Below are positions 7,995 through 35,260 of a stretch of 64,000 nt of DNA, piece by piece. Each line of letters starts with the position of its first letter. Within the stretch, counting starts at the first letter, position 1. Below the pieces are notes generated by a model. It had not been told where the DNA came from. It did not search any database and was given only the letters and a program-made list of their open reading frames with translations. Source of the DNA: Spinacia oleracea (Eukaryota; Streptophyta; Magnoliopsida; Caryophyllales; Amaranthaceae); the NCBI RefSeq assembly GCF_020520425.1, contig NC_079492.1, positions 114,177,157-114,241,156 on the forward strand, written 5' to 3'. A program made the position numbers and the translations under genes.

Positions 7995-8682
7995 CATAGG
8001 GACATAGAAAAACACAAAAAATTGAAGTACTACCAATAACAGTGAGGCAAGAAGCATAAAAGAGAAAGGTAACCAAGTAAGCAAATATGTCAATACTCAC
8101 GCTATATTGCACCATAGAGCACGAATTTTTTAACATTTGGCTTGTTAAGTATAACCCTAAATTGGAAGATTGAATCGAATGAACTCCATTCAAGGAAACT
8201 ACTAATTTCACGGAATCAATTGAATTCCAATACATAAACCTAATTCCACAAAATCAATAGAAAACCCCAAATTCGAGCAAAATCAACTTGAAATATTGAA
8301 TCAAATGCATAAATTTCAATCGAAAATTTAATTGAAGCATATATACAAAACTAAACGAGTAGATTTAACTTACCAGAACACTGGTTTGTGATAACGATGA
8401 ACAGATTGGATCTTCAAAGATTGCACGAGGGGTGTAGAAGAACGACAAGAGGGAGAGAATGGCGAGATTCCGCAAGAGGAGAGAGAAAGTTGAAAGAAGA
8501 GAGAGAAAGAAATTCTGAAAATTGAGGGAGTGAGAGGAGGTCATTCAAGGCGGTTAAAATTACTAATTTACCCTTAAAATTTTCGTTTGTTCGGGCAGAT
8601 CTTCGGCCGTTGGATTGAGTTGGTCAAGGGCTGAGATTGGTTCTCAGTTCTCATCTTAAGGGGTGGTTCTCACCGGATCCCG

Positions 8683-9086
<404 letters not shown>

Positions 9087-9204
9087 CACTAGTGGAAAAA
9101 CAGTCATTTGCGTCGCTCATTTAAGCACATTTGCGTCGCACATTGGTGCGACGCAACTGGCTGCGACGCAAATGAAAAAAGTCATTTGTGTCGCACATTT
9201 GGGC
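9087..9204. mobile_element. Truncated CACTA-like left terminus
   Basis: Begins CACTAGTGGAAAAA and continues with GTCATTTGCGTCGC-type subterminal repeats, identical to the left end of the element at 28,589. The match stops at 9204, after which unrelated sequence follows, so only the terminus is retained. Confidence 0.8.
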
Positions 9205-12128: not shown

Positions 12129-12420
12129 CACTAGTAGAAAAAACCCCTGTTGCAGCCCCCTTGTTGCAGCGTACAAGTATAAATACGCTTCAACAACCAG
12201 TCGGTCAACGCGGGTCAAACCCTTTAAAGGGTTATCGCAGCGTACATTTTAGTTGTTCGCAACAAATGCGTTTGTTGCAGCGTACAAAATAAAAGCCCGC
12301 AGCAACCAACCGTAGTTATTGCAGCGTACATGTTAATGCCCGCTGCAACAAGTCCGCGTTTCAAATTAAAATTTTTACTTTCCTAGTTGCAACGTACAAA
12401 CCGCGCTCAATCATATCTCT
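12129..12420. repeat. Left terminal inverted repeat and subterminal repeats of the CACTA
   Basis: After the terminal CACTAGTAGAA come about five to six copies of GTTGCAGCGTACA or its variants in both orientations. In En/Spm-type elements such subterminal motifs are bound by the TNPA-type protein. The same motif is dense at the right end. Confidence 0.85.
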
Positions 12421-13848
12421 GTTCCTTCTCTGCTATAGCTCCAAGCTTATCCAAGGTCGCCGTCGAACTCAGCTCGCGTCGCCGTCGAACCCAAGAGTTG
12501 CTCAGCCCTGCGTCGCTGTCTTGGTTCCGTTGGTTGCTCATCTCCCCGTCGCGTCGTGGTTCAGCCCTGCGTCGCTGTCTTGATTCCGTGGTTCCGTGGT
12601 TCAGCCCTGCGTCGCTGTCTTGGTTCCGTGGTTCAGCATCTCCCCGTCGCGTCGTGGTTCCGGTGGTTGCTCGGCGTCGTGGTTCCGGTGGTATGGTGTG
12701 TTCAATTTTTATTTTCGTTTTTTATTTTCGTTTTCAGATTAGGGTTCAATTTTAGTTTTTGATTTTCGTTTTGATTATTGTTTTTGATTTTCGTTTTTGA
12801 TTTTCGTTTTGATTTTCGTTTTGATTTTCGTTTTTGAAACTTAACGACCCAACGAAGTAAATGGGGATTGCTATGTTTCCGAGTATAGATCTATTTCTTT
12901 AAAAAGCACACAGCCACTATGTTTCCAAGTAATGGGGAATGGCCTAAGGCTGTTGCTGACTGCTACTCACCCCTTCAGACTGTTGTTTGGATGTTATTTT
13001 GCTGATTTCCAAGAGGCTTTTGGATTACCTTTTTTTTTTTTAATTTTTTTAATTTCCAAGTATGCTCAAAGTGTTGAATACATCACTTAGATCAGTAGTA
13101 TCAGGCCCTTAGTTCCCTTCTTCCTTCCCCGAGGTTACAGGATTTTATTCTGGCATTACCCTTCTTCCTTCCCCGAGGTTACGTAAGCACTTAGTTCCGC
13201 ACTTGAATGCTGCGTTAATGCCAATAACTTGAATATTGTGATTGCTACGTGGTGATGTGGTAGATAGTTAATTTCCTGTTACATGCATTCTATGAGAAAT
13301 ATCTGAATTTGGCCCTCGAACTATTTTCGTTTGATTTTCGTTTTGATTTTCGTTTTGATTTTCGTTTTGATTTTCGTTTTGATTTTCGTTTTTATTTTGA
13401 TTTTTTTGGCTGTTTTTCAATTATTTCTTTTATTTGCAGTTAATTGTGAAGATGGGTAGATACGCATATGGTTGAAGAGAGGGGCGATGATCGTACTGCC
13501 AGCATAATCTATCATCGTGCTTGTTCGAATTTCAACAATTGCATAAGGTATTGATATATCTAATTATCTTCATAAAATTTCTCTTTTCCTCTTTTGAAAG
13601 TTGAAATCAATAGTACAGTAAGTGCATATCATTTTTACGATAAATAAAATTTGGATAAGTATAGTAAGTGTAATAATAAAACGTGTACATTAGTATTCTA
13701 TGCTTAAGTATCCATTCCGTTTTACTTATTAGGACTGTTTTTGGACTTCTAATATCACTTCAGTGAAGCATTGATAAACTTAAATGATGTAACCAAAGAT
13801 TTGCGGAACTTCTTAATGATTTTGTGACTTCTTAATATATGTGTTTAT
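12421..13848 (+). other. CACTA 5' region with two kinds of minisatellite
   Basis: About 12,455-12,690 is a GC-rich stretch with repeats of CTGCGTCGCTGTCTTG and TGGTTCCG. About 12,712-12,840 and 13,318-13,410 are tandem GATTTTCGTTTT repeats. Open frames across these are repeat translations, not genes. The region presumably contains the transposase promoter and non-coding exons; no core element is clear. Confidence 0.5.
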
Positions 13849-13878
13849 GTGTGGAACCTTTTGTTGTTGTTATTAGTA

Positions 13879-16800
13879 ATGAGTCGTCGTTGGATGTATG
13901 GTGACCATACTACGGCAGAATACTTGAGTGGGGTCGCAGAGTTCATTAGATGTGCTTTAGCACACCAACGGAGTACAAAAGCCGAAAAAATCTATTGTCC
14001 CTGCCGTGATTGTAACAATATCAAGCGGTTAGGTGACATTGATGAAATTGAGGATCATTTATTTCGCCGTGGGTTTAAGCAAGATTACCATGTTTGGTTT
14101 TGGCATGGTGAAACAATACCTGATCGTCCAAGTTCTAGTGTCCATGAATTTGATGTTCAGAGTAATGAGAGTGATGATGATATTTATGAGAATAATGAGA
14201 CGGATGATGATGAGGAAGAAGATGATGAAATAAATGAGATGATGGATGGGCTGAAAGATCACTTGGACGAACGACCTCAGATGTTCGAACAAGTATCAAA
14301 GGCTGCTGAAACTCCATTGTATCCCGGTTGTACAAAATTCAGCAAGTTGGAATGTGTGTCAATACTTTACAACCTCAAATGTAAAGGTGGTTGGAGAGAT
14401 GAACACTTTGACACCTTATTGGAGTGGGTAGGTGAATTTTTGCCGGAAGGGAATGATATCCCCACCTCTACCTATTATGCCAGGAAATTGATGTGTCCCT
14501 TAGGCTTAGAGGTCGACAAGATAGATGCTTGCCCAAATGATTGTATCCTTTACAGAAAAGAGCATGAACATTTGGATGAGTGTCCAACATGCGGCGCATC
14601 TCGTTACAAACGCAAAGGGGCAAATTCAGCTAAGAGGGGCCCGCCTGCTAAGTCTTTGTGGTATCTTCCAATCATACCTAGGTTTGAGCGTATGTTTTCA
14701 TTGAAGAAACAAGCAAAAAACTTAAGGTGGCATGCGGAAGTGAGGAAGAAAGATGGACTCCTTCGACATCTTGCAGATTCTGTTCAATGGAGAAATATTG
14801 ATAAGAAATATCCTGAATTTGGTAAGGAGGTTAGAAATCTAAGGCTTGCTTTATGTGCAGATGGTGTGAATCCATATGGAACTCTAAGCAGTCAACATAG
14901 CACATGGCCGGTTCTTCTAGCAATTTATAATCTTCCTCCATGGCTGTGTATGAAGCGGAAGCATATCATGTTATCACTCCTCATCTCGGGGCCTAAGCAA
15001 CCTGGAAATGACATAGATGTGTACCTGGCTCCACTCATAGATGATTTGAAATTATTGTGGAATGAAGGTGTTTCAATGTTCGATGCACACACCAATTCAA
15101 GCTTTACATTGCGAGCTATGGTTTTTTGTACCATAAATGATTTTCCGGCATATGGAAACTTGTCTGGATACAAAACCAAAGGAGAACAAGCATGCCCTAT
15201 ATGTGAAGAGGACATGAAGCCCACATGGTTGCATAATTTCAAGAAAAATGTTTACCCAGATTTCAGGAAGCACCTCAGTCGATATCACCCTTATCGTAAG
15301 AAGAAGAAAGAATTCAATGGGTTCACCGAGGAAAGAGTAGCTCGTACGCCTTTGACAGGATCACAGGTTTATGAACGAATAAAAAATGTTGAAACCAAAT
15401 ACGGCAAGTGCTACAAGTCCAAGTCTAAAAAGGGTGTTTTGTGGAAGAAAGTATCTCCATTATGGGATCTTCCCTACTGGAGAGATTTGTCGGTTAGGCA
15501 TTGTCTCGATGTAATGCACATTGAGAAAAATGTGTGCGATGCTATCATTGGGACTTTGCTAAACATGCCTGGAAAGACTAAGGACAATGAGAATGTGCGG
15601 AAAGATATGAAAAAGAGGAATATTCGACCAGATTTGTGGCCTGTTGAAAAATCTGGTGCGGGTGGTACTAAGACTTATCTGCCTCCAGCGTGTTACACAA
15701 TGTCAAGAAAGGAGAAGAAGCAGTTTTGTGAGTGCTTACATGGAATTAAGGTTCCCTCGGGATATTCGTCGAATGTAAAGCGCCTAGTATCTCTCTCGGA
15801 CCTTAGGTTGGTTGGTATGAAGTCTCATGATTGCCATGTAATGATTAATGTGTTTTTGCCAATTGCACTTCGTGGGATATTGCCGAAACACGTGAGACAT
15901 GTTATAACAAAACTTTGTGTGTTTTTCAATTCTATATGTGCTAAAGTGATTGATCCGGAGAAATTAGATTCTTTGCACAATGATATTGTTGAAACTTTGT
16001 GTCGATTTGAAATGTACTTTCCACCATCTTTCTTTGATATTATGGTGCACTTAATTGTCCATTTAGTTCGAGAAATCAAGTTATGTGGTCCGGTGTTCTT
16101 AAGATGGATGTATCCTTTTGAGAGATTTTTTGGGCATTTAAAGGACAAAACAAAGAATCGGGCAAGGCCGGAGGGTAGTATCATTCGGGGAGTCCTTGAG
16201 GAAGAGATATCTCAATATGTAGCTGAATTCTTAACAAGGCTTGAGCAAATAGGTCTTCCAAAATCTCGTCATGCAGGGAGGCTTGAAGGGCATGGGGTAA
16301 TTGGTAAAAATGTGATCTCGCCTCCATCTGAAAGGAAGAATAAGGCACATCTTTGTGTGTTGCAGCATCTTACCGAGGTCAATCCTTACATAGATAAGCA
16401 TTTGCTAGAATTGCAACAAAAGAATCCTAAGTTGAAGGAAAGAGCGTTGATGCAAGAACATAATCGCACATTTGTTGATTGGTTTAAGAAGGAAGTAGCC
16501 GAGGAAATGAAAAAAAATCTAGATGTTTCTGAAATGGTCCAGTGGTTAGCTCGAGGTCCTCGACTATGTGTTCTGTCTTATGAAGGGTATGATATCAATG
16601 GGTTCACATTCTACACTAGAAGACAAGATGAAAAGAGTGTGGTGCAGAATAGTGGAGTGAAGCATGTTGCAGCATCTAGGGTCTATGCAAGCGCCAAGGA
16701 TAGAAGACCGGTTGATGCGACACAATCATATTATGGTGTTATCGAAGAAATATGGGAGCTTGATTACAACAAATTTACGATCCCTGTATTCCGGTGCAAG

Positions 16801-17151
16801 TGGGCCAACAACCATAATGGGGTGAAACAAGATGAAATTTTTCCTGGTTTAACATTGGTTAACTTTGATCGATTAAGTGATAGTGACGAGCCATTCATTC
16901 TAGCATCACAAGCTAAGCAAATTTTCTATGTGGTAGACAATGTTGATCCTATATGGCGTGCAGTTGCCCAAGGCAAGAGAAATATTCTGGGTATTGATGA
17001 TGTTGTGGATGAAGATGAGTATGACAAGTACGATGAAACACCCCTGTTACCAACGGCTGTTCAACCGTTACCGGAGGAGGAAGATGCAAATAATACTAAT
17101 CATATGCGCACAGATCATAGGGAAGGAATTTGGGTTGTAAACCGTAAATGA
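13879..17151 (+). CDS. TNP2-like CACTA transposase, intact
   Basis: An uninterrupted frame of 1,090 codons from the Met at 13879 (MSRRWMYG, the usual start of this family) to TGA at 17149-17151; the Met ten codons earlier gives an atypical Leu-rich prefix. Domain order by family knowledge: an N-terminal Transpos_assoc segment (about residues 1-80, CPCRDC cysteines); an acidic patch (about 95-120); the Transposase_21 catalytic region (about 250-560) with the conserved ADGVNPYG (about 325) and NDFPAYGN (about 420) motifs; the DUF4218-type region (about 635-760); and the DUF4216-type region near the C-terminus (about 950-1030). It would bind and cut the element ends in the nucleus. No stops or frameshifts are present, so it could be active. 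More 3' non-coding exons may follow. Confidence 0.92.
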   Translation: MSRRWMYGDHTTAEYLSGVAEFIRCALAHQRSTKAEKIYCPCRDCNNIKRLGDIDEIEDHLFRRGFKQDYHVWFWHGETIPDRPSSSVHEFDVQSNESDDDIYENNETDDDEEEDDEINEMMDGLKDHLDERPQMFEQVSKAAETPLYPGCTKFSKLECVSILYNLKCKGGWRDEHFDTLLEWVGEFLPEGNDIPTSTYYARKLMCPLGLEVDKIDACPNDCILYRKEHEHLDECPTCGASRYKRKGANSAKRGPPAKSLWYLPIIPRFERMFSLKKQAKNLRWHAEVRKKDGLLRHLADSVQWRNIDKKYPEFGKEVRNLRLALCADGVNPYGTLSSQHSTWPVLLAIYNLPPWLCMKRKHIMLSLLISGPKQPGNDIDVYLAPLIDDLKLLWNEGVSMFDAHTNSSFTLRAMVFCTINDFPAYGNLSGYKTKGEQACPICEEDMKPTWLHNFKKNVYPDFRKHLSRYHPYRKKKKEFNGFTEERVARTPLTGSQVYERIKNVETKYGKCYKSKSKKGVLWKKVSPLWDLPYWRDLSVRHCLDVMHIEKNVCDAIIGTLLNMPGKTKDNENVRKDMKKRNIRPDLWPVEKSGAGGTKTYLPPACYTMSRKEKKQFCECLHGIKVPSGYSSNVKRLVSLSDLRLVGMKSHDCHVMINVFLPIALRGILPKHVRHVITKLCVFFNSICAKVIDPEKLDSLHNDIVETLCRFEMYFPPSFFDIMVHLIVHLVREIKLCGPVFLRWMYPFERFFGHLKDKTKNRARPEGSIIRGVLEEEISQYVAEFLTRLEQIGLPKSRHAGRLEGHGVIGKNVISPPSERKNKAHLCVLQHLTEVNPYIDKHLLELQQKNPKLKERALMQEHNRTFVDWFKKEVAEEMKKNLDVSEMVQWLARGPRLCVLSYEGYDINGFTFYTRRQDEKSVVQNSGVKHVAASRVYASAKDRRPVDATQSYYGVIEEIWELDYNKFTIPVFRCKWANNHNGVKQDEIFPGLTLVNFDRLSDSDEPFILASQAKQIFYVVDNVDPIWRAVAQGKRNILGIDDVVDEDEYDKYDETPLLPTAVQPLPEEEDANNTNHMRTDHREGIWVVNRK

Positions 17152-17549: not shown

Positions 17550-19790
17550 TAAATCAAAACGAGCGGGCTTAAATTGACCTTAGTTGAATAAATTGACCTA
17601 AATTGACCTTAGTTGACTAAATTAGCATAAATATGAACCATAACTACCAAACAAGTCTCAAATGGCATAAATTGATTGAATTGAGTCTAGGTAAGTTAAA
17701 ACTAATCATATTAATCATTTAAAAGGATTAAAATGAGTGTTTAGGTTCTTTAGTTCAAAGTTGGGAGCGGAAATGTCATTTTAGCTCTATATATGACATA
17801 TAACGACCCAACGAGCCATAAATGTGCATGAATAGGTTCGAATGAGTTTTAGAAACTTAAAACTATGCATATTAGTCATGTAATAAGAATAAAATGAGTC
17901 ATTAGGTTCTTTAGTTCAAAGTTGGGAGCGAAAATGTCATTTTAGCTCTATATATGACCTATAACGACCCAACGAGCCATAAATGTGCATAAATAGGTTG
18001 GAATGAGTTTTAGAAACTTAAAACTATGCATATTAGTCATGTAATAGGATTAAAATGAGTGTTTAGGTTCTTTAGTTCAAAGTTGGGAGCGAAAATGTCA
18101 TTTTAGCTCTATATATGACCTTTAACGACCCAACGAGCCTTAAATGTGCATAAATAGGTTGGAATGAGTTTTAGAAACTTAAAACTATGCATATTAGTCA
18201 TGTAATAGGATTAAAATGAGTGTTTAGGTTCTTTAGTTCAAAGTTGGGAGCGGAAATGTCATTTTAGCTCTATATATGACCTTTAACGACCCAACGAGCC
18301 TTAAATGTGCATAAATAGGTTGGAATGAGTTTTAGAAACTTAAAACTATGCATATTAGTCATGTAATAGGATTAAAATGAGTGTTTAGGTTCTTTAGTTC
18401 AAAGTTGGGAGCGGAAATGTCATTTTAGCTCTATATATGACCTTTAACGACCCAACGAGCCTTAAATGTGCATAAATAGGTTGGAATGAGTTTTAGAAAC
18501 TTAAAACTATGCATATTAGTCATGTAATAGGATTAAAATGAGTGTTTAGGTTCTTTAGTTCAAAGTTGGGAGCGGAAATGTCATTTTAGCTCTATATATG
18601 ACCTATAACGACCCAACGAGCCTTAAATGTGCATAAATAGGTTGGAATGAGTTTTAGAAACTTAAAACTATGCATATTAGTCATGTAATAGGATTAAAAT
18701 GAGTGTTTAGGTTCTTTAGTTCAAAGTTGGGAGCGAAAATGTCATTTTAGCTCTATATATGACCTTTAACGACCCAACGAGCCTTAAATGTGCATAAATA
18801 GGTTGGAATGAGTTTTAGAAACTTAAAACTATGCATATTAGTCATGTAATAGGATTAAAATGAGTGTTTAGGTTCTTTAGTTCAAAGTTGGGAGCGGAAA
18901 TGTCATTTTAGCTCTATATATGACCTATAACGACCCAACGAGCCTTAAATGTGCATAAATAGGTTGGAATGAGTTTTAGAAACTTAAAACTATGCATATT
19001 AGTCATGTAATAGGATTAAAATGAGTGTTTAGGTTCTTTAGTTCAAAGTTGGGAGCGAAAATGTCATTTTAGCTCTATATATGACCTTTAACGACCCAAC
19101 GAGCCTTAAATGTGCATAAATAGGTTGGAATGAGTTTTAGAAACTTAAAACTATGCATATTAGTCATGTAATAGGATTAAAATGAGTGTTTAGGTTCTTT
19201 AGTTCAAAGTTGGGAGCGGAAATGTCATTTTAGCTCTATATATGACCTATAACGACCCAACGAGCCTTAAATGTGCATAAATAGGTTGGAATGAGTTTTA
19301 GAAACTTAAAACTATGCATATTAGTCATGTAATAGGATTAAAATGAGTGTTTAGGTTTGTTAGTTCAAAGTTGGGAGCGAAAATGTCTTATTTTAGCATA
19401 AATATGAACCATAACGACCAAACAAGTCTGAAATGGCATAAATTGATTGGATTGAGTCTAGGAAAGTTAAAACTAATCATATTAATCATTTAAAAGGATT
19501 AAAATGAGTGTTTAGGTTTGTTAGTTCAAAGTTGGGAGCGAAAGTGTCATATTAGCCTAAAAATGAGTTCTTAGGTTCTTTAGTTCATAGTTGGGAGCAA
19601 AAATGCCTCATTTTATCATAAATATGAACCACAACGACCAAACAAGTCTCTAATGTGAATAAATAGATCGGATCGAGTCTTGGAAAGTTAAAATTAATCA
19701 TATTAATCATTTAAAAGGTTAAAATGAGTCCTTATGTTCGTTAGTTCATAGCTTGGAGCGAAAATGCCTCATTTTAGCATAAGTGGTGTT
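17550..19790 (+). repeat. 161-bp tandem repeat array 1 (forward)
   Basis: The landmark GGTTCTTTAGTTCAAAGTTG recurs at exactly 161-bp spacing (17744, 17905, 18066 ... 19354), giving eleven well-conserved units, with degenerate units on both sides (to about 19,790). Units contain GTTGGGAGCG, CTCTATATATGACC and CGACCCAACGAGCC. Central units are nearly identical, implying recent homogenisation. The array lies between the two CACTA genes and is inverted relative to array 2. Confidence 0.95.
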
Positions 19791-21719: not shown

Positions 21720-24700
21720 ATGAATGAAAACCAAATTGTTGTTAGGCATGAATCAGAAGGTGGCAAGACTCCCACAACGCGTGACGAATCACAAGATGTT
21801 AGTACGATTACAAAGACCATTAAAGGCCGTGGTCCGTCAAAAGGTGTTAAAGTCGCTAAGCCTATGTTCCTTGAGTATAATGTATATAATGTCCCCGATG
21901 GACAATGGTCTCATGAATACGGGAAGCAAGTTGGGAGTTGTGCTACTAGAATTAATATTAACGTCCCATTATATCCAAAGGTAGATGAGCAAATCAAGAA
22001 GGGGTTTTGGGAGGAGACTAAGGTAAGCATTGGATATTAACTTGATTTGTATATTTTAGGGATTATTTAATTTGATTTAAATACTATTTTTATAATCTAA
22101 CTTTTTTTAATTATTAACAGCTTATGTTCCACATTACTGATGATTCTAATCATTCGAGGGAGAAATATTTTCATTCTTGTGTGGCGAAACGATTTAGTTG
22201 TTTCAAGAGCAAGTTGGTGCGCCGATGGATAACTATGAAGGAAAAGAAGCCAAAAAATCAAACAAACAAGATGCCTTGGGATGTCTACAACCATATCACA
22301 GAGGATGATTGGAAGACTTTTGTTAAACATTATTTCCTGCCAGAGTCATTGGTAATGATAATATTTCTTTAACTTGTCCTTAAAGAGTTTTTCATGTAGC
22401 AAACTGACATTGGTTCTAGGACAAAAAGTTATCAGAAAAAACATTTATTTCCATCTTTTTATGTTGTCTTTGACAGCTTCGTAGTGAAAAGGCGAGGAAA
22501 AGTGCATCATGCAACAAGAACCCACATCGCACCGGCCAAAAGGGTTATAATAGAAAGCGACTAGATTGGATAAAGGATGGACGACTTCCACCAGATGCAG
22601 CTTTACCTATCTCGAGTAGCTCCTCGGTGAACTCATCAGTGACCTCAAATGTTAATAGAGTTAGAAAATACAGATCAAAGGAGTGGATTTTGGCCCATCA
22701 AGTACAAAATAAAGAGGGAAAGTGGGAAATTGACCCGAACGATTCAGAAGTTGTTGAAATCGCAACAAAAGCTGTAAGTAGCGATAATTAATTAATATTT
22801 ACTTGCTTTGATTAGAGAATATAAAGTAATTTTACTTTCCTAATTGGCAGTTAGAGTACATCGCAGAAGAGGAAAAAGGAAATCTTTCTTTCGAACAGGG
22901 TGAGGATGCCCTCACTAAAGCTATAGGGAAAAAAGATCATCGTGGGCGTGTCAAGGGAACAGGTGGCATGGTTGGTATCAAAAAGGCTTTCGGTCCGTGT
23001 ATTCGACATAGTAGAAGTGACCATGGTCATCAGAAAATTACGAATCAATCAGAGCTTCTGTGAAAAAGGAGTTTGAAGGTGAATTAGAGAAAAGGGTAGA
23101 GAAGAGGGTGGCAGAGGCCCTCCAAAAGCAACTAAGCACCTTGTTAAAAACAGGACAACTAAACTCCATTTCTACCCCGATACCTGATGACCTCCACTTA
23201 AATGATTCTGCCAGAGTTGACCTTGATGTTAGTGCTACAAGAACCACTCGTCACATCTTAGTGCCGCAACCACGCGAGCTAAAGGTACGACGTAGTCACT
23301 CTTTTTTAACATAGTTGCTTGATCCTTTTATGTTTTTAGTTGACATTTACTTAATAATCTGTATCACTTACAAAGTTGCATTGAAACCTTTGTTTATGAA
23401 GGAAAGGACTCCATGTCGTCTTGCCCTTGAGGAGAAAGTTTCAGGCAACAACATTGTCGTGGCGGATGGTATGGTACAACCCTCAGATGGTGCATTGCCC
23501 CAACATTTTACATCGATGAAGCCTGGTCACTATAAAGTCCAAGTTGATTTTGTTTACGAAGGACATGTTGATGATATTCTTCCGGTACCTACGGGAGATG
23601 GTTTCACTAACTTAGGCGGTACTCTGGGTAGTTTTGTGCAATGGCCCATACACTTAGTGATTTTCGAAGACGGCGAGGTATATATGTTTTATTGTTTAGA
23701 ATGTATATGTTCACGCAAGCACATTCGACATCTTACCTACTCTTGTTTTTGTTGAATTTTAAAGGATTGTATTTCACCTCCTAAAAAGAAGTCCAAGTCT
23801 AATGTTTCTAAAGAGAGGGATGGTAGCTCCAAGAAAAAGACAACGGTGTTAGCGGCCCAAAAGAAGACAACAGACTTACCATCCAAGGTAAACCCTCTAA
23901 AACTCATTCGAACCTAAAATGACATTTTCGCTCCCAACTTTGAACTAAAGAACCTAAGGACTCATTTGATTCTTATTACACGACTAATATGCATAGTTTT
24001 AAGTTTCTAAAACTCATTCGAACCTATTTATGCACATTTAAGGCTCGTTGGGTCGTTAAAGGTCATATATAGAGCTAAAATGACATTTTCGCTCCCAACT
24101 TTGAACTAAAGAACCTAAACACTCATTTTAATCCTATTACATGACTAATATGCATAGTTTTAAGTTTCTAAAACTCATTCGAACCTATTTATGCACATTT
24201 AAGGCTCGTTGGGTCGTTAAAGGTCATATATAGAGCTAAAATGACATTTTCGCTCCCAACTTTGAACTAAAGAACCTAAACACTCATTTTAATCCTATTA
24301 CATGACTAATATGCATAGTTTTAAGTTTCTAAAACTCATTCCAACCTATTTATGCACATTTAAGGCTCGTTGGGTCGTTAAAGGTCATATATAGAGCTAA
24401 AATGACATTTTCGCTCCCAACTTTGAACTAAAGAACCTAAACACTCATTTTAATCCTATTACATGACTAATATGCATAGTTTTAAGTTTCTAAAACTCAT
24501 TCCAACCTATTTATGCACATTTATGGCTCGTTGGGTCGTTATAGGTCATATATAGAGCTAAAATGACATTTTCGCTCCCAACTTTGAACTAAAGAACCTA
24601 ATGACTCATTTTATTCTTATTACATGACTAATATGCATAGTTTTAAGTTTCTAAAACTCATTCGAACCTATTCATGCACATTTAAGGCTCGTTGGGTCGT

Positions 24701-27045
24701 TATATGTCATATATAGAGCTAAAATGACATTTTCGCTCCCAACTTTGAACTAAAGAACCTAAGGACTCATTTGATTCTTATTACACGACTAATATGCATA
24801 GTTTTAAGTTTCTAAAACTCATTCGAACCTAATTATGCACATTTAAGGCTCGTTGGGTCGTTATAGGTCATATATTAACCTAAAATGACATTTTCGCTCC
24901 CAACTTTAAACTAAAGAACCTAAGGACTCATTTGATTCTTATTACATGACTAATATGCATAGTTTTAAGTTTCTAAAACTCATTCGAACCTATGTATGCA
25001 CATTTAAGGCTCGTTGGGTCGTTATAGGTCATATATTGAGCTAAAATGACATTTTCGCTCCCAAATTTGAACTAAAGAACCTAATGACTCATTTTATTCT
25101 TATTACATGACTAATATGCATAGTTTTAAGTTTCTAAAACTCATTCGAACCTATTCATGCACATTTATGGCTCGTTGGGTCGTTATATGTCATATATAGA
25201 GCTAAAATGACATTTCCGCTCCCAACTTTGAACTAAAGAACCTAAACACTCATTTTAATCCTATTACATGACTAATATGCATAGTTTTAAGTTTCTAAAA
25301 CTCATTCGAACCTAATTATGCACATTTATGGCTCGTTGGGTCGTTATAGGTCATATATAGACCTAAAATGACATTTTCGCTCCCAACTTTGAACTAAAGA
25401 ACCTAAGGACTCATTTGATTCTTATTACACGACTAATATGCATAGTTTTAAGTTTCTAAAACTCATTCGAACCTATTTATGCACATTTATGGCTCGTTGG
25501 GTCGTTATAGGTCATATATTGAGCTAAAATGACATTTTCGCTCCCAAATTTGAACTAAAGAACCTAATGACTCATTTGATTCTTATTATATGACTAATGT
25601 TAATTGACTATTGTTATAGGAATTTTCGCATCCAAAGAAGTCGAATTCTAAGCCTAAGTCCAACTTAGAGGTCGTGGGTAGTTGTGATCGTAAAACACAA
25701 GAATCAACCACCAAAAGCAAGAAAGCGGGACTTGTACACGATGCAATTCAAGGTCTTGGCCCGTCATGCAAATACTTGCAGTTTATCATGACTTCGGCGC
25801 CTGATGATATATATGATAATACTACCATCCCATTGGCGGCCTCAGTTTGGCACTCGGATTTTGATCAAGAAACATACATAACTGCGTCTGATATAGGAGA
25901 GTTCCTTCGCGGGGCGTGCTTAAACATTTCAGCGATCCAAGTCTACATATTGTAATTAAATGTTTTATTGTTGTTAATAAAACTATTATTTCTTTGAAGT
26001 TTTTTCTCTTTATCGATCTTAATAGTGTAATCTTGTTTATTTTGTAGGTGTTTATTGCACGATCATGCCAAATCATTTGAAATGTCTCGGATTTCGTTCA
26101 TTTGTCCCGAGATTATGTCAAGCACTAGAATCAAGGCCGACCCTGGAGCGCCAACAATGTATTTGAAAAACATTTTCCAAGCTGAAATTGAAAAGGAGAA
26201 GATGGGTAATCCTAACCTAACTAATTGGTTTTTAATCCCATATAATCAAGAGTAAGTGTGTTATATTATATAAGTTTCATATAAAATATTAATTATTATT
26301 GTTATTAAATATTTAATATATCATTTATAAATTATACAGAAATCATTGGAATTTATACGTGATGGACCTACGTAGAGGTTATGTATATATTTTCGATTCT
26401 GCTAGAGATCCACGTCGAACAGATTATGCATGGGGAATCTTGAGTTTGTAAGTTCTTTTGCTTACAAATTACATTAGTCTTTAAGAAACCTAAGCCAAAA
26501 TCATATTCATGAGTACCCATGTTTCGTTAATTTTCTAGGGCATACCAAGTGTACAAGTGCAATGGTGGGCATTGTCCGAATAAAACGAGTTTTAAGTCGT
26601 GTAAACCCATTCATATAGAGGTATAACATGTTTCTTAATTAGCTTTTTGCTTTGTTTTTATTAATTATTGGCCTTGCAAGATAAAGTATTATGTTTCTTA
26701 ATCAGTGTGCTCAACAAATCGGCGGAACTGAGTGTGGCTATTACGTTATGAAGTTCATGTTAGAGATAGTCACGTTACAACATGACTATGAAGGCCGGCT
26801 AGATGAGGTAATTAAGTAACTAATTGATTCGTATTCTAGACTATTAATACATTGTCATTAGTTGCTTGAATGTTAAAATGTGACATTTCATTTGCATTTA
26901 ATCGATCTAATATATGCTCCATCAATTTTTTTGTTTTTGTAAGGTCTATACTCCGAGGACTGCGCCTTATGCTAGTGAGGAAATTGATGTGGTTCGTGAG
27001 CAATGGGCGAAGTTTTTTACCACCAAGTATTTATTATTGACCTGA
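21720..27045 (+). CDS. CACTA second gene: Ptta/En/Spm-type domain fused to Ulp1-like (C48) protease
   Basis: Thirteen exons fit GT-AG introns: 21720-22022, 22121-22351, 22477-22773, 22851-23284, 23402-23677, 23765-23887, 25620-25951, 26048-26251, 26340-26447, 26539-26620, 26706-26807, 26944-27045 (22851-23284 read as one exon or two). The N-terminal third has the Transposase_24-like pattern (RWITMKEKKPK, W..F; LTKAIGKKDHRGRVKG); a segment after 23402 resembles the family's middle domain. The C-terminus is a Ulp1 cysteine protease: His in NHWNLYVMDL, Asp in IFDSARD, Gln in CAQQ and Cys in GGTECGYYV. All exon lengths keep frame except 22851-23284 (434 nt, one short), so the frame breaks near 23,030-23,045 at an A4 tract. 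Such fusions occur in plant CACTAs; the protease's role is unknown. About 864 residues if the base is restored. Confidence 0.75.
23900..25605 (-). repeat. 161-bp tandem repeat array 2 (inverted), in an intron
   Basis: The reverse complement of the array 1 unit occurs at 161-bp spacing from about 23,939 to 25,549 (landmark TTTGAACTAAAGAACC), eleven occurrences. It fills the 1.73-kb intron 23,888-25,619 of the second gene. Units are more diverged than in array 1. A transcript of this intron would be complementary to plus-strand transcripts of array 1. Confidence 0.95.
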
Positions 27046-27299: not shown

Positions 27300-27701
27300 G
27301 CCAAAAGTGCTTTTTGCAGCGTACATATATGTTGTACGCTGCAACAAGGGAAAAAAATTTCGCAAAAATTCAGACTTGTTGCAGCGTACAAATAAATGTA
27401 CGCTGCAAAAAATTGAGTAATTCAGACTTGTTGCAGCGTACAAATAAATGTACGCTGCAAAAAGTTGGGTCTGTTGCAGCGGGCTTTTATATGTACGCTG
27501 CAACAAGTCCAAAATTTTGCCAATTTTTTGGCACTTGTTGCAGCATACATCTAAAAGCCCGCTGCAACAAATCACTTTTTGCAGCGAACATGTACGCTGC
27601 AACAAGTTCAGACTTGTTGCAGGCCCCCCAGTTGCAGCATACGATGTACGCTGCAACAGGGGTCTAAAAGCCCGCTGCAATAAGGGTTTTTTCTACTAGT
27701 G
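27300..27701. repeat. Right subterminal repeats and terminal inverted repeat of the CACTA
   Basis: About a dozen TTGCAGCGTACA motifs in alternating orientation, many forming hairpins with 20-30-bp arms, end in ...TTTTTTCTACTAGTG at 27701. The arrangement mirrors the left end but is denser. Confidence 0.9.
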
Positions 27702-28332
27702 AAGCAGAAAAGAGAAAGGTAACCAAGTAAGCAAATATGTCAATACTCACGCTATATTGCACCATAGAGCACGAATTTTTTAACATTTGGCTTGTTAAGT
27801 ATAACCCTAAATTGGAAGATTGAATCGAATGAACTCCATTCAAGGAAACTACTAATTTCACGGAATCAATTGAATTCCAATACATAAACCTAATTCCACA
27901 AAATCAATAGAAAACCCCAAATTCGAGCAAAATCAACTTGAAATATTGAATCAAATGCATAAATTTCAATCGAAAATTTAATTGAAGCATATATACAAAA
28001 CTAAACGAGTAGATTTAACTTACCAGAACACTGGTTTGTGATAACGATGAACAGATTGGATCTTCAAAGATTGCACGAGGGGTGTAGAAGAACGACAAGA
28101 GGGAGAGAATGGCGAGATTCCGCAAGAGGAGAGAGAAAGTTGAAAGAAGAGAGAGAAAGAAATTCTGAAAATTGAGGGAGTGAGAGGAGGTCATTCAAGG
28201 CGGTTAAAATTACTAATTTACCCTTAAAATTTTCGTTTGTTCGGGCAGATCTTCGGCCGTTGGATTGAGTTGGTCAAGGGCTGAGATTGGTTCTCAGTTC
28301 TCATCTTAAGGGGTGGTTCTCACCGGATCCCG

Positions 28333-28371
<39 letters not shown>

Positions 28372-28706
28372 GGCGTGTCGACGGTAGCTTTTGAGGTAGC
28401 GGGTAGCGTTTTGACCTATTCAAGACGCTACTTGTAAAATTTGTGAGTGTTTGACAAGGTAACGGTTTAGGTAGCGGTTAGCAGTAGAGGTATTGGTTAG
28501 GTAGCTTTTGTCAAACATTAAAATTAGTAGCTCTTAAGGTAGCAGGTAGCGTTTAACAAATTAGCGCGTCTCTTGTGTGACCAACCACCACTAGTGGAAA
28601 AACAGTCATTTGCGTCGCTCATTTAAGCACATTTGGGTCGCACATTGGTGCGACGCAACTGGCTGCGACGCAAATGAAAAAAGTCATTTGTGTCGCACAT
28701 TTGGGC
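27702..28706. repeat. Right copy of the near-identical direct duplication
   Basis: Collinear with 8,052-9,204 apart from the TA run length. It begins at the exact base after the CACTA right terminus. At its right edge it continues into the complete CACTA-like element (28,589-34,722), whereas the left copy breaks off there. Confidence 0.9.
28337..28368. repeat. (TA)16 microsatellite
   Basis: Counterpart of the 180-bp TA run at 8,687-8,866 in the duplicated segment; 148 bp shorter. Confidence 0.95.
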
Positions 28707-29190
28707 GACGCAAATAAGAGTCATTTGCGTCGCAGATTAGCTAATCTGCGACGCAAATGACTTTTATTTTAACATGCCGAAAAGTCATTTGCGTCGCGGT
28801 TTAACTAAACTGCGACGCAAATGACTTTTCAATATGTTAAAATAAAAGTCATTTGCGTCGCAGATTAGCTAAAGTGCGACACAAATGACTTTTCATCATG
28901 ATAAAAAAAAAAGTCATTTGCGTCGCAGTTGTAGCTAATCTGCGACGCAAAATGACTTTTGGATATTCTAAAAAAAAGGAGCTGCTGATTTTATTTAATC
29001 CATAGATTAAATAAAATAAGCAGCTTTCAATACTAGTATATTCAGAGCATAAAAATAAAAGTAAACTAGGTGAAAATTTCGGCAATGTTTCCTTTGTAAT
29101 TTGACCCTCCCCGATACCGGAAATGTTATAATACAAAATGTGAAAGTCTTAGTTTTATTTCCTCTAGCTCACACTAACAATATACAAATT

Positions 29191-29341
29191 AACATTCAAT
29201 TTCAACAATAAGTCCACTATGAAAAAGTCCACTACGAATGCATGGAGAAGCCAATATTTCTCCATCTACTACCTCACTTCTTGATGCCCTTAAAGGTTTC
29301 ACACGAGGCTCTGCCTCGAAATATGAATAGATGTCTTCATC
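29191..29341 (-). pseudogene. Terminal exon with poly(A) signal inside the CACTA-like element
   Basis: On the minus strand a CAG acceptor (at 29342) precedes about 49 codons (starting DEDIYSYFEAEP) ending in TAA near 29191, followed some 20-30 bases later by an AATAAA near 29,165. This looks like the last exon and 3'UTR of a gene. I do not recognise the peptide. It may belong to the same captured gene as the upstream VHS exons or to a different one. Confidence 0.45.
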
Positions 29342-29455
29342 CTGATAAAACATTAAAACAATGGAAAATTATGAAAATTATGGACTTTCACCTGTAATTA
29401 ACACACAAACCACCTTGGAAAGTAAAGCAATTATCACTTTATACTGAAATATTAA

Positions 29456-30258
29456 GGATTTTTTGCCAAAAAGGACCTTTTATAAACGGTTTTTTGCGAG
29501 AAAGGACCTTTTATGACGAAATTGGTGAAATGGGACCTAAAACATAAAATTTTTTGTTGATTGGGACCTTTTACCGGTTTTTTGGAGTTGACCCAAGATT
29601 CAGGCAACGACTTTGACACGTGGCAACCGGAGAGTGCCACGAGTCCATTTAATGATTAAAAAAAAATTTGCCCAAAAAAAAAAAGCCTAAAAAAAAAAAT
29701 TCGATATTTTTTTTTTTGTGGCCCCAAATCGAATTTCTTTTTTTATGCCCCAATTTTGCGAAGAACCCTAATTTTTTCGACGCAAAATTAGAACAATTGA
29801 GGGGGGAAACTAGCAAACCTCATTCGTGTGGCTATGAATAACAATTCGTGGTAGACAATTTCAGTGACGAACTTTAAGGCAATTGGGATTTTGGAGGGAG
29901 AATTGGAGCAAAAAAAATCGATTTGGGGCAAAAAAAAAATATCGATTTGGGGCAAAAAAATCAATTTCGATTTGGGGTAAAAAAAAAATCGATTTGGGGC
30001 AAAAAAAAAAAAAAAAATCGATAATTTTTTTTTTTGGGGGGGATTTTTTTTTTTTTAATCATTAAATGGACACGTGGCCTTCTCCGGTTGCCACGTGTCA
30101 AAGTCGTTGCCGGAATCTTGGGTCAACTCCAAGAAACCGGTAAAAAGTCCAAATCAACAAAAAAAATTATGTATTAGGTCCCATTTCACCAATTTCGTCA
30201 TAAAAGGTCCTTTCTCACAAAAAAACGTTTATAAAAGGTCCTTTTTGGCAAAAAAACC
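29456..30258. mobile_element. MULE-type MITE with long inverted repeats
   Basis: Inverted repeats of about 200 bp start GGATTTTTTGCCAAAAAGG at 29456 and end with the complementary sequence at 30258, flanked by the perfect 9-bp direct repeat AAATATTAA (29447-29455 and 30259-30267). A 9-bp duplication is characteristic of Mutator-like elements. The core (about 29,880-30,050) is a low-complexity run alternating A-tracts with ATCGATTTGGGG. It sits in a presumed intron of the captured gene. No transposase. Confidence 0.9.
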
Positions 30259-30473
30259 AAATATTAAACTAAAATATATTATCACTAAAAGCTAACGTGT
30301 ATCTAATAAATCTGAAACGTAGCATCGCCGAGCAGGTTATGCATATACTCAATTAAGTACATTAATCTAACACGAGTCTTGTCTGTAAAGGGACATCTAA
30401 TGATCCAACAGTTAAGCTAAGATCATATCACTTAATTCTAGACAAGAGTAACTGATATATTAAGTTTGGATAC

Positions 30474-31429
30474 CTGCAGCACATCTTGTTCGGGAGAAGA
30501 AGATAGAACGGTTGAAAGAAAGCTCAATGCAATTCCGTGCGACATTAAATGCTTCTTTTGTGTCTTCTTCTGAGAAGCTTTGTACTGGAATATCAGGCTG
30601 TGCAAGAGGTGCATTCACATCTGCTTCAAGGACAGAGCAAGGAGGGGTAAAAACAGGTGCCAAACTCTCATCATCACGTCCTGGGAATCGGATTCCTCTC
30701 GATCTCAAGCTCTATTAAGTTAAAGAATTAAAGAATAACACGTTAGAAAGATGAAAAAAGGATACCAAAATATCTGCTCATTCCAAATAACATTTACTTG
30801 ATAAATTACCAGTAAGCAAAAGATGGAAATATACGAGTACAAAAAATTATCATTCTGGTCATCTCAAAAAAAGAAGGAAGATGAATATGCATCTTATAAA
30901 ATAGACATACCTTATATGTTTCTTCAAATACAGGCAAGTATCTGAGTTCGTTTGAAGATTCCCCCCGGGATTCAATTAACATAAGTGCCTTGTTCCTGTT
31001 CATAATCACAGTTTGAGGGTCATCAATCAACTTCACCATCTCATCAAGAACCCTCTCAGACGCCACCTTAGAGAAGTCTTTTTCGCAGTTCTTAACAACA
31101 GTTTCGAGCAACACCATAGACAAATACTGAACCCTATGGGTCTTTAACATAATCCGCTTCTTTTTCCCTCGAATCAAGTCAATACTATTGACTCTCTCTT
31201 GATTAACCATGTCACATATCTCCAGATTCGTGGCCCAATCTGGCTCCTCGAGGGTCTCTACAGTGGCCTCCTCAACAATCTTATCCGTCTGATTCAGCCC
31301 TTGGAATAATTCCTTCATCTTGTCACCCATCGATCTCACACCAGCACTCATTTTCTTACCAACCTCAATCCCACCGATCTTTAGGCGCTCACCCAATGAG
31401 GTGACTTTATCCATCAAGTTATCACTCAT
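30474..31429 (-). pseudogene. Captured TOM1-like (TOL) gene fragment, VHS domain and start of GAT region
   Basis: Two exons on the minus strand, 31429-30911 and 30711-30474, joined in phase 0 by a GT-AG intron. The first encodes MSDNLMDKV..., then a VHS domain (about residues 45-170: TLEEPDWATNLEICDMVN, GKKKRIMLKTHRVQYLSMVLLETVVKNCEK). The second encodes SLRSRGIRFPGRD, a hinge typical of plant TOL proteins, and the start of the GAT region. Intact TOL proteins bind ubiquitinated cargo at endosomes for ESCRT sorting. An extra base in an A-run at about 30,519-30,521 shifts the frame just as the GAT domain starts, and the rest of GAT is missing. It is a 5' gene fragment retained with its intron, so it was captured as genomic DNA. 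Confidence 0.82.
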
Positions 31430-32479
31430 CTTCACAAACCCCTCTAGTTCAAAATTATAACCCAAAACACACCACTGGTTATTCTACAAGCAGCGACGAC
31501 AGACCTAAATTGTGCAAAACAAACCAGCAAATTTGAAACAAACTTATTTCAGATTTTCAGTTGAATTCAAAGCACAACAATCACACAATCCAATAGAAAA
31601 TTTAAAAGAAGCTTATAACTCGTCAAACACGTTAGAATCTTGAATCAGTCTAAAATACAAGGGTTGATTATACCCTAAAAAACATAAATGACAACAAAGG
31701 ACCAAACTACATTCTTCAAGATACATATGGATCACTGATATAACTTCATGATAGTTCTGATTATACTCTACTCAAGCCTCTTGTCATTCACAGTTAGTGT
31801 GAGATATATAGACATACGCATGGGAAAACACAATACAAGAATTTACAGCAGCACAAAAATATGCTAATGAAATGGAGATGTTTCCCATCCAAACAGCTAA
31901 CCCAAACAAAAATGCATATACAAGGCAATAGAATAACTAGTACTACGTATATAAAAAGAGCAGTTCAAAGTTATTTAACAAACAACTCGGAATAAAATTA
32001 ATTCCCCCTCATGCGGGTACAGGTGAATTGCAGGTGAAACAGGTTACGTAATATTGGCAAGGTGACTAAATTCGGATCATAAACAAGTATTACTTATGTT
32101 TTTCTACGCTCTACTTTCGGGCTTCATATGTGTTTATAAGTTATACTAGCTAGGAAATGGAGAAATATGAATCTGCTTTCTTTTCAATATGAAAATATTT
32201 TCCATTTAAGAGAAAGTTATTTTTCTTCTTATTCAACCTCTACTCAACAAAACTCTCACAAGGAATCACAAGATTCACAACCATAGTTTTTCCACATTCC
32301 TCAATATTCACAGATCAGAACCACAATATCATATCAGAAACTTAATATTGATTCCACAAAAGGCATGACAAAATTAAGGCTAATAATAACTACAAGTAGG
32401 AAACAATATCATATGGAGACCTAACTATGAGGAATTCAGGGGAAATGAAGCTAGAAGGGAGAAAGTAAGATAGAGTTAC

Positions 32480-32786
32480 CTGTATGACACTATGAGCAGA
32501 AAACCTTGACCTACTGCTGTGGAAACTGACATCAACCTTCTCCCACGGAACCCAAGATAAACCTGTCACCAGTTCCTCTACAAGTAACCAGCCCAAAGTA
32601 AAAGATGAACAAAACAAGTACTATCAAACAACAAAATACATTTGGTTCATGAACGTACCTTCTATTTTGTCACATCTACTATCTTCTTCTGATGCAACCT
32701 CATTTGGTTCCCGTGCTTCACGAAGCTCCTCGTAGACTATATGAGGGTATTTCTTCATTTGGGTTCGCACGACCAAAATTGTTCTC
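32480..32786 (-). pseudogene. Captured exon pair of an unrecognised gene
   Basis: Two minus-strand exons, 32786-32659 and 32577-32480, have good acceptor and donor sites. Their phases agree (phase 1), giving about 75 residues through KKYPHIVYEELREARE and TGLSWVPWEKVDVSFH. The spliced frame does not run into the VHS exons, because their 5' leader has a stop in that phase. I do not recognise the family. It is probably a second captured fragment, or the N-terminal part of a chimera. Confidence 0.45.
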
Positions 32787-34085
32787 CTAAAAAATGGATG
32801 CAATATATAAATTGAATGGTTAGAAGCAGGCTGACATAACTGCTTTCAACAGAGCAGTGTAGGAGAAACCCAAAAAATATATGAAAATTAATTTGCAAAA
32901 TTAAAGGAGAAGCATGACATTTTCTAAAAATTCACGTAGCATCAACCAGATAGTACAAAAGACAATTAGTCAAGCGAAAAAATTCCAAAATGTTTACAAC
33001 ATTTGATAACTAACATAATATATGAATGTTCTAATGGTAGGATAACAGCTCAACTCCACTCGACCACTCAAACATAACAACGTATAGCATCATCCTCAAA
33101 CATAACAACGTGTACGTCGCATAAACATACTTTATTAGCTACCCAGGGAAATATATATGTAGTGCTGATGTTGGATAGAAGGATAGTTCAAATATTTATT
33201 AAGTGAATATTTGTAATTAAATATAGAAGGATGCCATATTATCAGGCAATCAAGAAATCAAATTACATTCATCATTCTCGAATAGAAAATGAAGATGACT
33301 AGAGAGGAAATTTAAAACATAAAAGAAATGGATAAGATACCCTGTGAAAAAACACAATATGTGGAGTCCCAAACTGTCAATAAATTAGATTAAGCCATAT
33401 TGACCCCAATTCCCAACACTATACAACCAATATAGTGAATCAAGAAGCTCAAGGGATTCTTTCAAATTCTAACAGAAACAATTTGATGAGAATGTGTTAA
33501 TCTCTTCAAAGGCGCAGACAAACCACAAATATGGTACCACATGGCATACAATAGAAACACCAGGCTAACGGTCTTTGAAATCCCACCCACAAAACAATGT
33601 CTCAGTAGAATTAGTATCAAAGGCACAACACAATGACCATTAGCAACTTAGATCCACCACAGAAACTCAGAAATCTCAATATCACAACAAAAAATCACAG
33701 AGAAAACATAATCATATACCACAATACATCGACACGAACATTTCAGATCAAGAATAACGATTTCCGTCCAAAACATTAGCATTTCAATAATATAAATCGA
33801 CACAAACTATAAAAAACCCCAAATTGTTAACAACATTTGATAACTAACATAACCCTAAATTTATAAGAACCAGGACCTCAAATTAAGCAAAGTCGTCTTC
33901 TCCAGCTAGATTTAGTTTTACACGCAATTTACTCAAAACCCCAAATATCAAAACCCTAATTCGTTCCATCTAATAATTGGAAAAATTAGCCTAAATTTCC
34001 TGCACAATAAACTTACTAGGCTCAACTAATTAAAGGAAATTCAATTTAATGAACAATCAAAACAGGAGAATTAAAGTAAACCAAC

Positions 34086-34256
34086 CTTGAGAAAGAAAAG
34101 AGGAGTAACAGAAGATTTGGTCGGCCAGAAGGGAGGACGACAACCGCAGTACCTATGGTAGAGGCGAGTAGGTGGTAGCGGCGGCGAGAAGCGGGATCTA
34201 CCGGCGAGCAGAGTAGTGCGGTGGATGGTATGGTGAGAGGAGGCTTTGAACTGCAC
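34086..34256 (-). pseudogene. Possible captured first exon, Ser/Arg/Pro-rich
   Basis: A minus-strand open segment rich in Ser, Arg, Pro and Thr with few acidic residues, ending at CTCAAG/GT (34086/34085). It would suit an organelle-targeting first exon, but no ATG is in the same frame; an ATG about 20 bases upstream is in another frame. It may equally be a 5'UTR exon. Confidence 0.3.
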
Positions 34257-34722
34257 AGAACCCTTTCATACTTGCGTCACGGAGCTGAGCCTTTTCCCGA
34301 CCTTGACCACGAGCACTAAGATGGAGGAGGAGGGTGAACGCGGCAGGGTGGAGGAAGAACATACGACAGTGAGAAGAGGAGGAGGGTGAACGACGGTGAG
34401 AGCTGAGGGTGAGCGATGGAGGAGTTTTGTTTTAGGGTTTTATCTCGATTTAGGGTGAACGCCGCAGTAATGAGAGTTTTAGGAGTTGAGTCATTGCGTC
34501 GCACATTTCTAAATCTGCGACCCAAATTTAAATTCATTGCGTCGCAGGTTTGTAAATCTGCGACGCAGATGACTGTATAATGCTTGGAACAGTCATTTGC
34601 GTCGCAGATTTATAGAACTGTGACGCAATGACAATTTTTTAGACTAAAATTTTTCAATTGTGTCACGAATTTATAAGTGCGACGCAAATTCAGTGATGCA
34701 AATAAACATTTTTCCACTAGTG

Positions 34723-35260
34723 CACACCATGAACTTGATGGTGTGACGCGCGCGCTCAACTTCTCGCTCGCAACTACTATGCAGAAGGTTATTAAGTGGT
34801 GTTACTTGACTTTCTATGCTGGTGTTACTTATACATTGTATTCGTCTTTACTTTTATTGTTTTATTGCAATTTCTTGAATTTTGTGTTAGAGGTTCCTAG
34901 TATAGTCACGTGTTACTTGACTTTCTATGTTGGTGTTACGTAAACATTGCATTCGTTGTTACTTCCCTTGTTCCATTACAGGTTCTTCAATTTAATGTTA
35001 GAAGTTCCTTGTATAGACCGGTGTTACTTATTTTCTATGTTGATGTTACTTTTAGGTTCTGTTGACCAACACGCTTGACTTATTTATAAGTGTGAACATA
35101 TTACAACATCAACACAGTTCACACTTGCCACACCATCAAGTTGATGGTGTGGCTTGTCACATATAAGACTTTATGTGACCAATTTTATAGTAAAGTTTTA
35201 AATAATATTCTAGCTTTTATTTTATTTTATAATATCAACCGATATTTTTATTAAACACTC
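34723..35260. repeat. Paired palindromes and a 111-bp tandem repeat
   Basis: CACACCAT...ATGGTGTG palindromes occur at 34723-34745 and 35131-35153. Between them, at about 34,798-35,055, is roughly 2.5 copies of a 111-bp unit starting GTGTTACTTGACTTTCTATG. The block looks like the remains of the element that hosted the CACTA-like insertion. Confidence 0.6.

Follow-up and report, generated by a model that had tools for sequence, protein, structure and literature searches.

We compared a 64,000-nucleotide stretch of the Spinacia oleracea genome (C6:114177157-114241156, hereafter the window) with 894,210,420 bases of the same genome (242 contigs, the main ones being C1-C6), and found a complete, non-autonomous CACTA transposon of 6134 bp (~6.1 kb) at window positions 28589-34722. 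Judging from its sequence, this element is very probably a gene-capturing CACTA of the Pack-CACTA type that carries parts of three host genes together with an intron segment of a fourth, and that was mobilised after capture. The host DNA was captured at the DNA level, introns included, and mobilisation followed later. A first-pass annotation, made from the letters of the window, had already proposed capture with retained introns. Three observations confirm the proposal: the genome contains donor loci at other places, the mosaic occurs a second time, and related sites align through the point of insertion.

The element begins and ends with the same exact 13-bp terminal inverted repeat (TIR), CACTAGTGGAAAA, of the type known from CACTA elements, and it is flanked at both sides by the target duplication CAC, as the first-pass annotation had described. 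The 3-bp length is that of the CACTA superfamily; the sister copy described below has CTT, and three relatives also have matching 3-bp duplications. Subterminal repeats, another feature of the superfamily, were abundant: 21 repeats of the CATTTGCGTCGC type in the whole window, against 0.12 expected, with 16 inside the element and 5 in a duplicate around position 9087. That duplicate holds a third exact CACTAGTGGAAAA terminus, at 9087 and likewise preceded by CAC, and sits in 8835-9204, a direct duplicate (99.7%) of 28337-28706, that is, of the left flank and the first 118 bp of the element. We nevertheless took 28589-34722 as the transposed unit because the copy on contig C2 has those limits. 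An exact search found no CACTAGTGGAAAA terminus internal to the element. The only open reading frame (ORF) of at least 110 aa within it was a TOL (TOM1-like) exon, and a tnp2-type transposase ORF, expected of autonomous members only, was absent; the element is therefore non-autonomous and its transposase must be supplied from elsewhere.

Related sites lacking the element, which had been suggested as a check in related plants, were found in the same genome. When the flanks were joined with one CAC dropped, 40 of 1606 candidates were scored and gave 120 rows; 30 of the best 40 rows matched across the junction at 83-90%, as related empty sites do. Of the remaining ten, three came as halves from the region of the window itself, and the other seven covered positions 1-125 only. 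The joined flanks match many places, so the element was inserted into a dispersed repeat or at the margin of one.

Both ends of the element belong to a CACTA family (Table 1). The first 545-547 bp of the left-end module were present in 15 further places among the 40 scored, and the last 643 bp of the right-end module, all or nearly all, in 14 of 40 scored places at 90-100%, the window's own included. These copy numbers are lower bounds, because only 40 candidates were scored in each search (of 1897 for the left end and the nested inverted-repeat element, 418 for the right end and 168 for the search that located the DUF676, kinase and PDAT-like donors). Two supposed captured pieces had to be reconsidered in this light. 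The 'terminal exon' does have an AATAAA on the minus strand (~29154-29159) and a splice signal at 29341, but nearly all of it (29341 downwards), AATAAA included, lies within the left-end module. The Ser/Arg-rich 'possible first exon' lies in the right-end module.

The TOL fragment was recognised by its VHS domain (PF00790, E 3.7e-20, Pfam) and comprises an AG acceptor adjoining 31504, an ATG at 31429, an exon end at 30911, an intron, a second exon at 30711-30474 and part of the next intron. GT/AG splice signals border the TOL exons, the exon pair at 32786-32480 and the exon starting at 29341; the earlier reading of 31429-30474 as spliced exons of a TOM1-like VHS gene stood. All 20 TOL donor candidates were scored; in the donor at C3:9.01 Mb both captured exons are open and a further downstream exon (DDLTTTLVQQCRQ...), which we assume to be GAT-like, is found in the same locus. 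The captured piece had no match in a plasmid collection, as expected. We rejected it as a working TOL gene, given that it is truncated and that a frameshift is shared by both copies of the element.

The exon pair at 32786-32480, described at first as unrelated to TOL and in phase, keeps its splice signals and a continuous DUF676 reading frame through both exons. It does not derive from one gene, though: it is a kinase-DUF676 fusion within an exon, in which the acceptor and the first 34 nt come from a kinase gene and the rest from DUF676, and the kinase frame is lost. Positions 32753-32759 belong to both matches. No Pfam family was assigned at E up to 1 to the pair, the terminal exon or the right-end peptide, and the pair had no PDB match; the identity of the pair came from the donor loci, which, like the intact TOL gene, it had been advised to seek and which were located at C3:0.277 Mb (DUF676) and C4:10.32 Mb (kinase). 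The DUF676 donor has PF05057 stretches upstream (E 3.5e-22 and 1.4e-6), while the exons that were captured match no Pfam family and presumably come from the C-terminal end of the donor gene. For the kinase donor, the neighbouring exon had Snf1/AMPK as best structural match (E 1e-14) and a Pkinase match below the Pfam cut-off; the name SnRK1 is our assumption. The PDAT/LCAT-like segment corresponds to donor DNA between an ORF with PF02450 (LCAT, E 2.6e-15) and a first-exon-like ORF without a Pfam match, which we presume to be PDAT-like. This is probably a fourth captured gene, the least certain of the four; where at least one and probably two or more captured genes had been expected, three are well supported and this one is probable. 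All four fragments have their sense on the minus strand of the window, as had been noted. All or most of 33216-33456 (241 bp) within the PDAT-like segment was also seen at six other places at 95-96%; at four of these (L045-L048) the flanks are common to all four and unlike those in the window.

Table 1. Coordinates of the features of the CACTA element and its flanks in the window.
Feature	Position	Strand	Evidence
Target site duplication CAC, left	28586..28588		sequence read
Left TIR CACTAGTGGAAAA	28589..28601	+	exact terminus match
Left-end module of CACTA family, with subterminal repeats	28589..29335		common to C2:33.20, C2:8.03 and C6:81.36 Mb at 90-94%
DUF676 intron piece (precedes next DUF676 exon)	29380..29440	-	84% to C3:0.278 Mb
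Target duplication AAATATTAA (9 bp), left side of MITE	29447..29455		sequence read, sister comparison
Nested miniature inverted-repeat transposable element (MITE), 803 bp, 211-bp inverted arms (94% complementary)	29456..30258		unfilled site in sister copy
Target duplication AAATATTAA (9 bp), right side of MITE	30259..30267		sequence read, sister comparison
TOL VHS gene fragment	30320..31665	-	donor C3:9011567-9012911, 95.7%
Dispersed repeat	31677..32044		87-91% to C5:64.175 Mb; elsewhere mostly 76-81% or short pieces
Stretch common to C2:8.03 Mb relative, not DUF676 donor	32181..32448		84% to relative over 32181-32759
DUF676 esterase fragment: exon piece, intron, exon 32577-32480	32449..32759	-	90% to C3:277327-277652
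SNF1/SnRK1-like kinase fragment: intron and first 34 nt of exon	32753..32987	-	88% to C4:10320644-10320877
111-bp segment	32959..33069		at seven other places, 94-96%, besides the C2 copy
PDAT/LCAT-like intron segment	33085..33606	-	95% to C2:8621932-8622453
Right-end module of CACTA family, with Ser/Arg-rich region and subterminal repeats	33603..34722		genomic alignments
Right TIR CACTAGTGGAAAA	34710..34722	-	exact terminus match
Target site duplication CAC, right	34723..34725		sequence read

We found a sister copy of the whole mosaic at an unlinked site (C2:33185472-33202580), flanked by the target duplication CTT. It is 94.4% identical to the window over 28589-29455, 98.5% over 30259-31104 and 98.6% over 31093-34723. 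As the same mosaic lies at two sites with different target duplications (CAC and CTT), the element was mobilised after capture. Host gene DNA with identifiable donors and captured DNA present at more than one site are the marks of a Pack-CACTA. The MITE, on which the first-pass annotation is silent, is absent from the sister, which has a single AAATATTAA where the window has two; from the 9-bp duplication we take it to be Mutator-type, and its first part was matched at 93-98% by 21 of the 40 scored places. In the sister, TOL exon 1 is interrupted by an 11.8-kb insertion, probably a long terminal repeat (LTR) retrotransposon because it has TG...CA ends and is flanked by CAGTT.

Other relatives hold subsets of these pieces. 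The one at C2:8.03 Mb has the left end and the DUF676 pieces, and the TOL fragment, the kinase piece and the right end were not found within the 9 kb read there; in the window, stretches derived from DUF676 stand on both sides of TOL. These two observations support a stepwise history of capture. Among the seven other loci scanned, three had both ends and matching 3-bp duplications, namely L056 (1.49 kb), L060 (5.09 kb) and L061 (4.32 kb), and in the other four (L053, L057, L058 and L059) both ends were not seen. Different portions of the PDAT-like intron are present in L060 and L061, with a 15-bp overlap with the portion in the window. L061 also holds the 111-bp segment 32959-33069, which starts with 29 bp identical to the kinase donor intron, without any other kinase match; either its branch formerly possessed the kinase piece, or the capture made use of homology over these 29 bp. 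DNA seems to have been acquired more than once by the wider family, since L060 and L061 hold other parts of the intron and L061 holds other DNA besides. As for non-gene DNA, 32181-32448 is possibly another part of the same inserted repeat as 31677-32044. The other DNA of L061 (5900-7300 of that locus, at C4:91.3 Mb) is common to four other places at 99-100% and includes an ORF without a Pfam match; it resembles a family concentrated at C5:2.82-2.87 Mb (best match 96% over 3-308 and 85% over 324-1195).

The captured TOL part appears to be decaying now. Compared with the donor, exon 2 has 1 nt inserted, which shifts the frame in both copies alike. Between the copies we counted 11 nonsynonymous and 2 synonymous changes, corresponding to rates of nonsynonymous (dN) and synonymous (dS) substitution of 0.019 and 0.012, where 10.2 of the 13 changes would be nonsynonymous without constraint; on these 13 changes, which give low power, there is no sign of protein constraint since the copies separated. 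Against the donor, dN and dS were 0.030 and 0.067 for the window copy and 0.033 and 0.064 for the sister. The noncoding TOL sequence differs from the donor at 28 of 587 sites in the window and at 31 of 586 in the sister, and if substitution rates are taken as 6.5e-9 to 1.3e-8 per site and year, the divergence from the donor would date to 1.9 to 4.2 million years ago.

How the pieces entered the element has to be judged mainly from their junctions. At three junctions, adjacent matches have 4, 7 and 29 bp in common, and the fragments may have come in as filler DNA during break repair, by end joining or template switching where short sequences are shared; we favour this route because the fragments are short, these three junctions overlap and TOL is enclosed by two pieces of one other captured gene. 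In the model of Catoni et al., as far as the available part of that source sets it out, neighbouring CACTA copies around host DNA are instead fused by complementary terminal deletions and mobilised together, which has been proposed for Arabidopsis Pack-CACTA elements (PMC13317346). Such fusions would lose the inner termini, and none is seen here; yet the shortness of the fragments, their origin from four loci on three contigs, the position of TOL and the short overlaps make filler insertion the simpler fit, and we consider this co-mobilisation possible but rather unlikely for the spinach element. That the region is simply a native, collinear TOL locus with two unrelated solo CACTA ends, as the two exons and their splice signals in native order might suggest, has a negligible probability. 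The C3 locus has the same exons open plus one further downstream, the element's similarity to it ends at 30320 and 31665, the point of insertion is spanned by matches at related sites and, decisively, the mosaic recurs between the same ends on contig C2 with its own target duplication.

Several points weigh against our account of gene capture by filler repair and later mobilisation. Two other junctions are gaps of 11 and 15 bp, with no overlap, and the proposed mechanism rests on junction anatomy, while terminal-deletion models likewise leave no inner termini. The 30 empty-site rows were called from coordinates, not by a letter-by-letter reading, and of the left flank they cover just 15-38 bp with CAC counted. 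For the PDAT-like segment the direction of transfer is less certain because 241 bp of it also lie in another repeat, and 282 of the 6134 bp of the element had no match at any other locus compared. Finally, the between-copy constraint test has little power, and the changes common to both copies, compared with the donor, gave dN 0.021 and dS 0.061, a dN/dS of 0.35, meaning that constraint acted over part of this interval. The ratio may be due to the donor's own branch, as it is unpolarised and mixes that branch with the element branch before the copies split. It could also speak for a selected role of the element, as a chimeric gene that is expressed or as an origin of small RNA regulating TOL or DUF676, together with the four fragments in one sense, the splice signals present and, in the available part of that report, the splicing of fragments as exons in the soybean element Tgm-Express1 (PMC1947982). 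We hold such a role to be highly improbable: the frameshift in TOL exon 2 is in both copies, the changes between copies match the expectation without constraint, an insertion of 11.8 kb divides TOL exon 1 of the sister, and one sense in 4 of 4 fragments has a chance of 1/8. Moreover, the predicted spliced chain in the DUF676 frame meets a stop six codons past the TOL junction, and from the TOL ATG it runs for 253 aa, including the VHS region, to a stop at the terminal-exon junction, so there is no continuous fusion protein via the predicted exons. The shared sense relative to the right end and the retained splice signals also led us to consider an orientation rule, under which the right-end module would drive readthrough, the fragments would serve as cassette exons or as antisilencing camouflage, and capture would favour transcribed donors in one orientation; we regard it as very unlikely.

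Other features were seen in the window. A second CACTA element has its left end at 12129 (terminus CACTAGTAGAAAA), which was confirmed against one other copy, and an open tnp2 ORF at 13828-17151 (1107 aa; PF02992, E 7.5e-87). Its protein was 99-100% identical at all 42 scored places (of 2418 candidates, the window included), 30 of them without an internal stop, and because of this identity and the mostly uninterrupted frames the family looks very young. Its right end was sought in a second copy of this element at equal offset, with no match. We ruled it out as the source of the ends of the 28589-34722 element, since its terminus differs, and found no evidence that it mobilises that family, whose autonomous partner was not located. 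A direct duplication joins 8051-9204 and 27701-28706 (99.7-99.9%): the latter copy starts at, or a few bases from, a CACTA-type end (27701), and the former ends 118 bp into the element's left end (9087-9204). The rearrangement abutting the CACTA end thus came after insertion of the element, since the duplicate takes in its first 118 bp; aberrant transposition is one guess at its origin. The ends at 12129 and 27701 do not form an element pair by their flanks (TTT/AAG). Two satellite-like arrays with a period of ~161 bp lie in opposite orientation at 17622-19566 and 23914-25598.

The spinach element belongs to the known Pack-CACTA kind, and the phenomenon itself is already well described. A literature search on CACTA with TOM1-like and gene fragments returned no paper, and we do not present Pack-CACTA elements as new to spinach. 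Examples that combine DNA of several loci are on record, and the available text of the Pack-TYPE account names Arabidopsis, rice and maize, with the word Spinacia absent from it (PMC8903248). In related plants, the Jozin CACTA elements of Chenopodium, according to the available part of their description, have closely similar termini (CACTAGTGGAAAA... for C. sosnowskyi) and carry captured gene fragments; those are coding CACTA elements with the captures outside the coding sequence, whereas the spinach element has no transposase ORF (PMC8978399). The closest precedent is Tgm-Express1, reported, in the available part of the source, as a 5.7-kb CACTA at the soybean wp allele with five gene fragments spliced as exons: it is similar in size (5.7 vs 6.1 kb) and in its intronic and exonic fragments of unrelated genes (five vs four), but it has another host and other genes, lies in an F3H intron, and its splicing into transcripts was shown (PMC1947982). 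For the spinach element, donor loci, another copy and a relative that carries some of the pieces were all located in one genome. Since this single genome contains the likely donors, the finished mosaic in two copies, relatives with subsets and related empty sites, the order of captures and the junctions can be reconstructed, which helps to choose between repair-filler and co-mobilisation models of CACTA gene capture.

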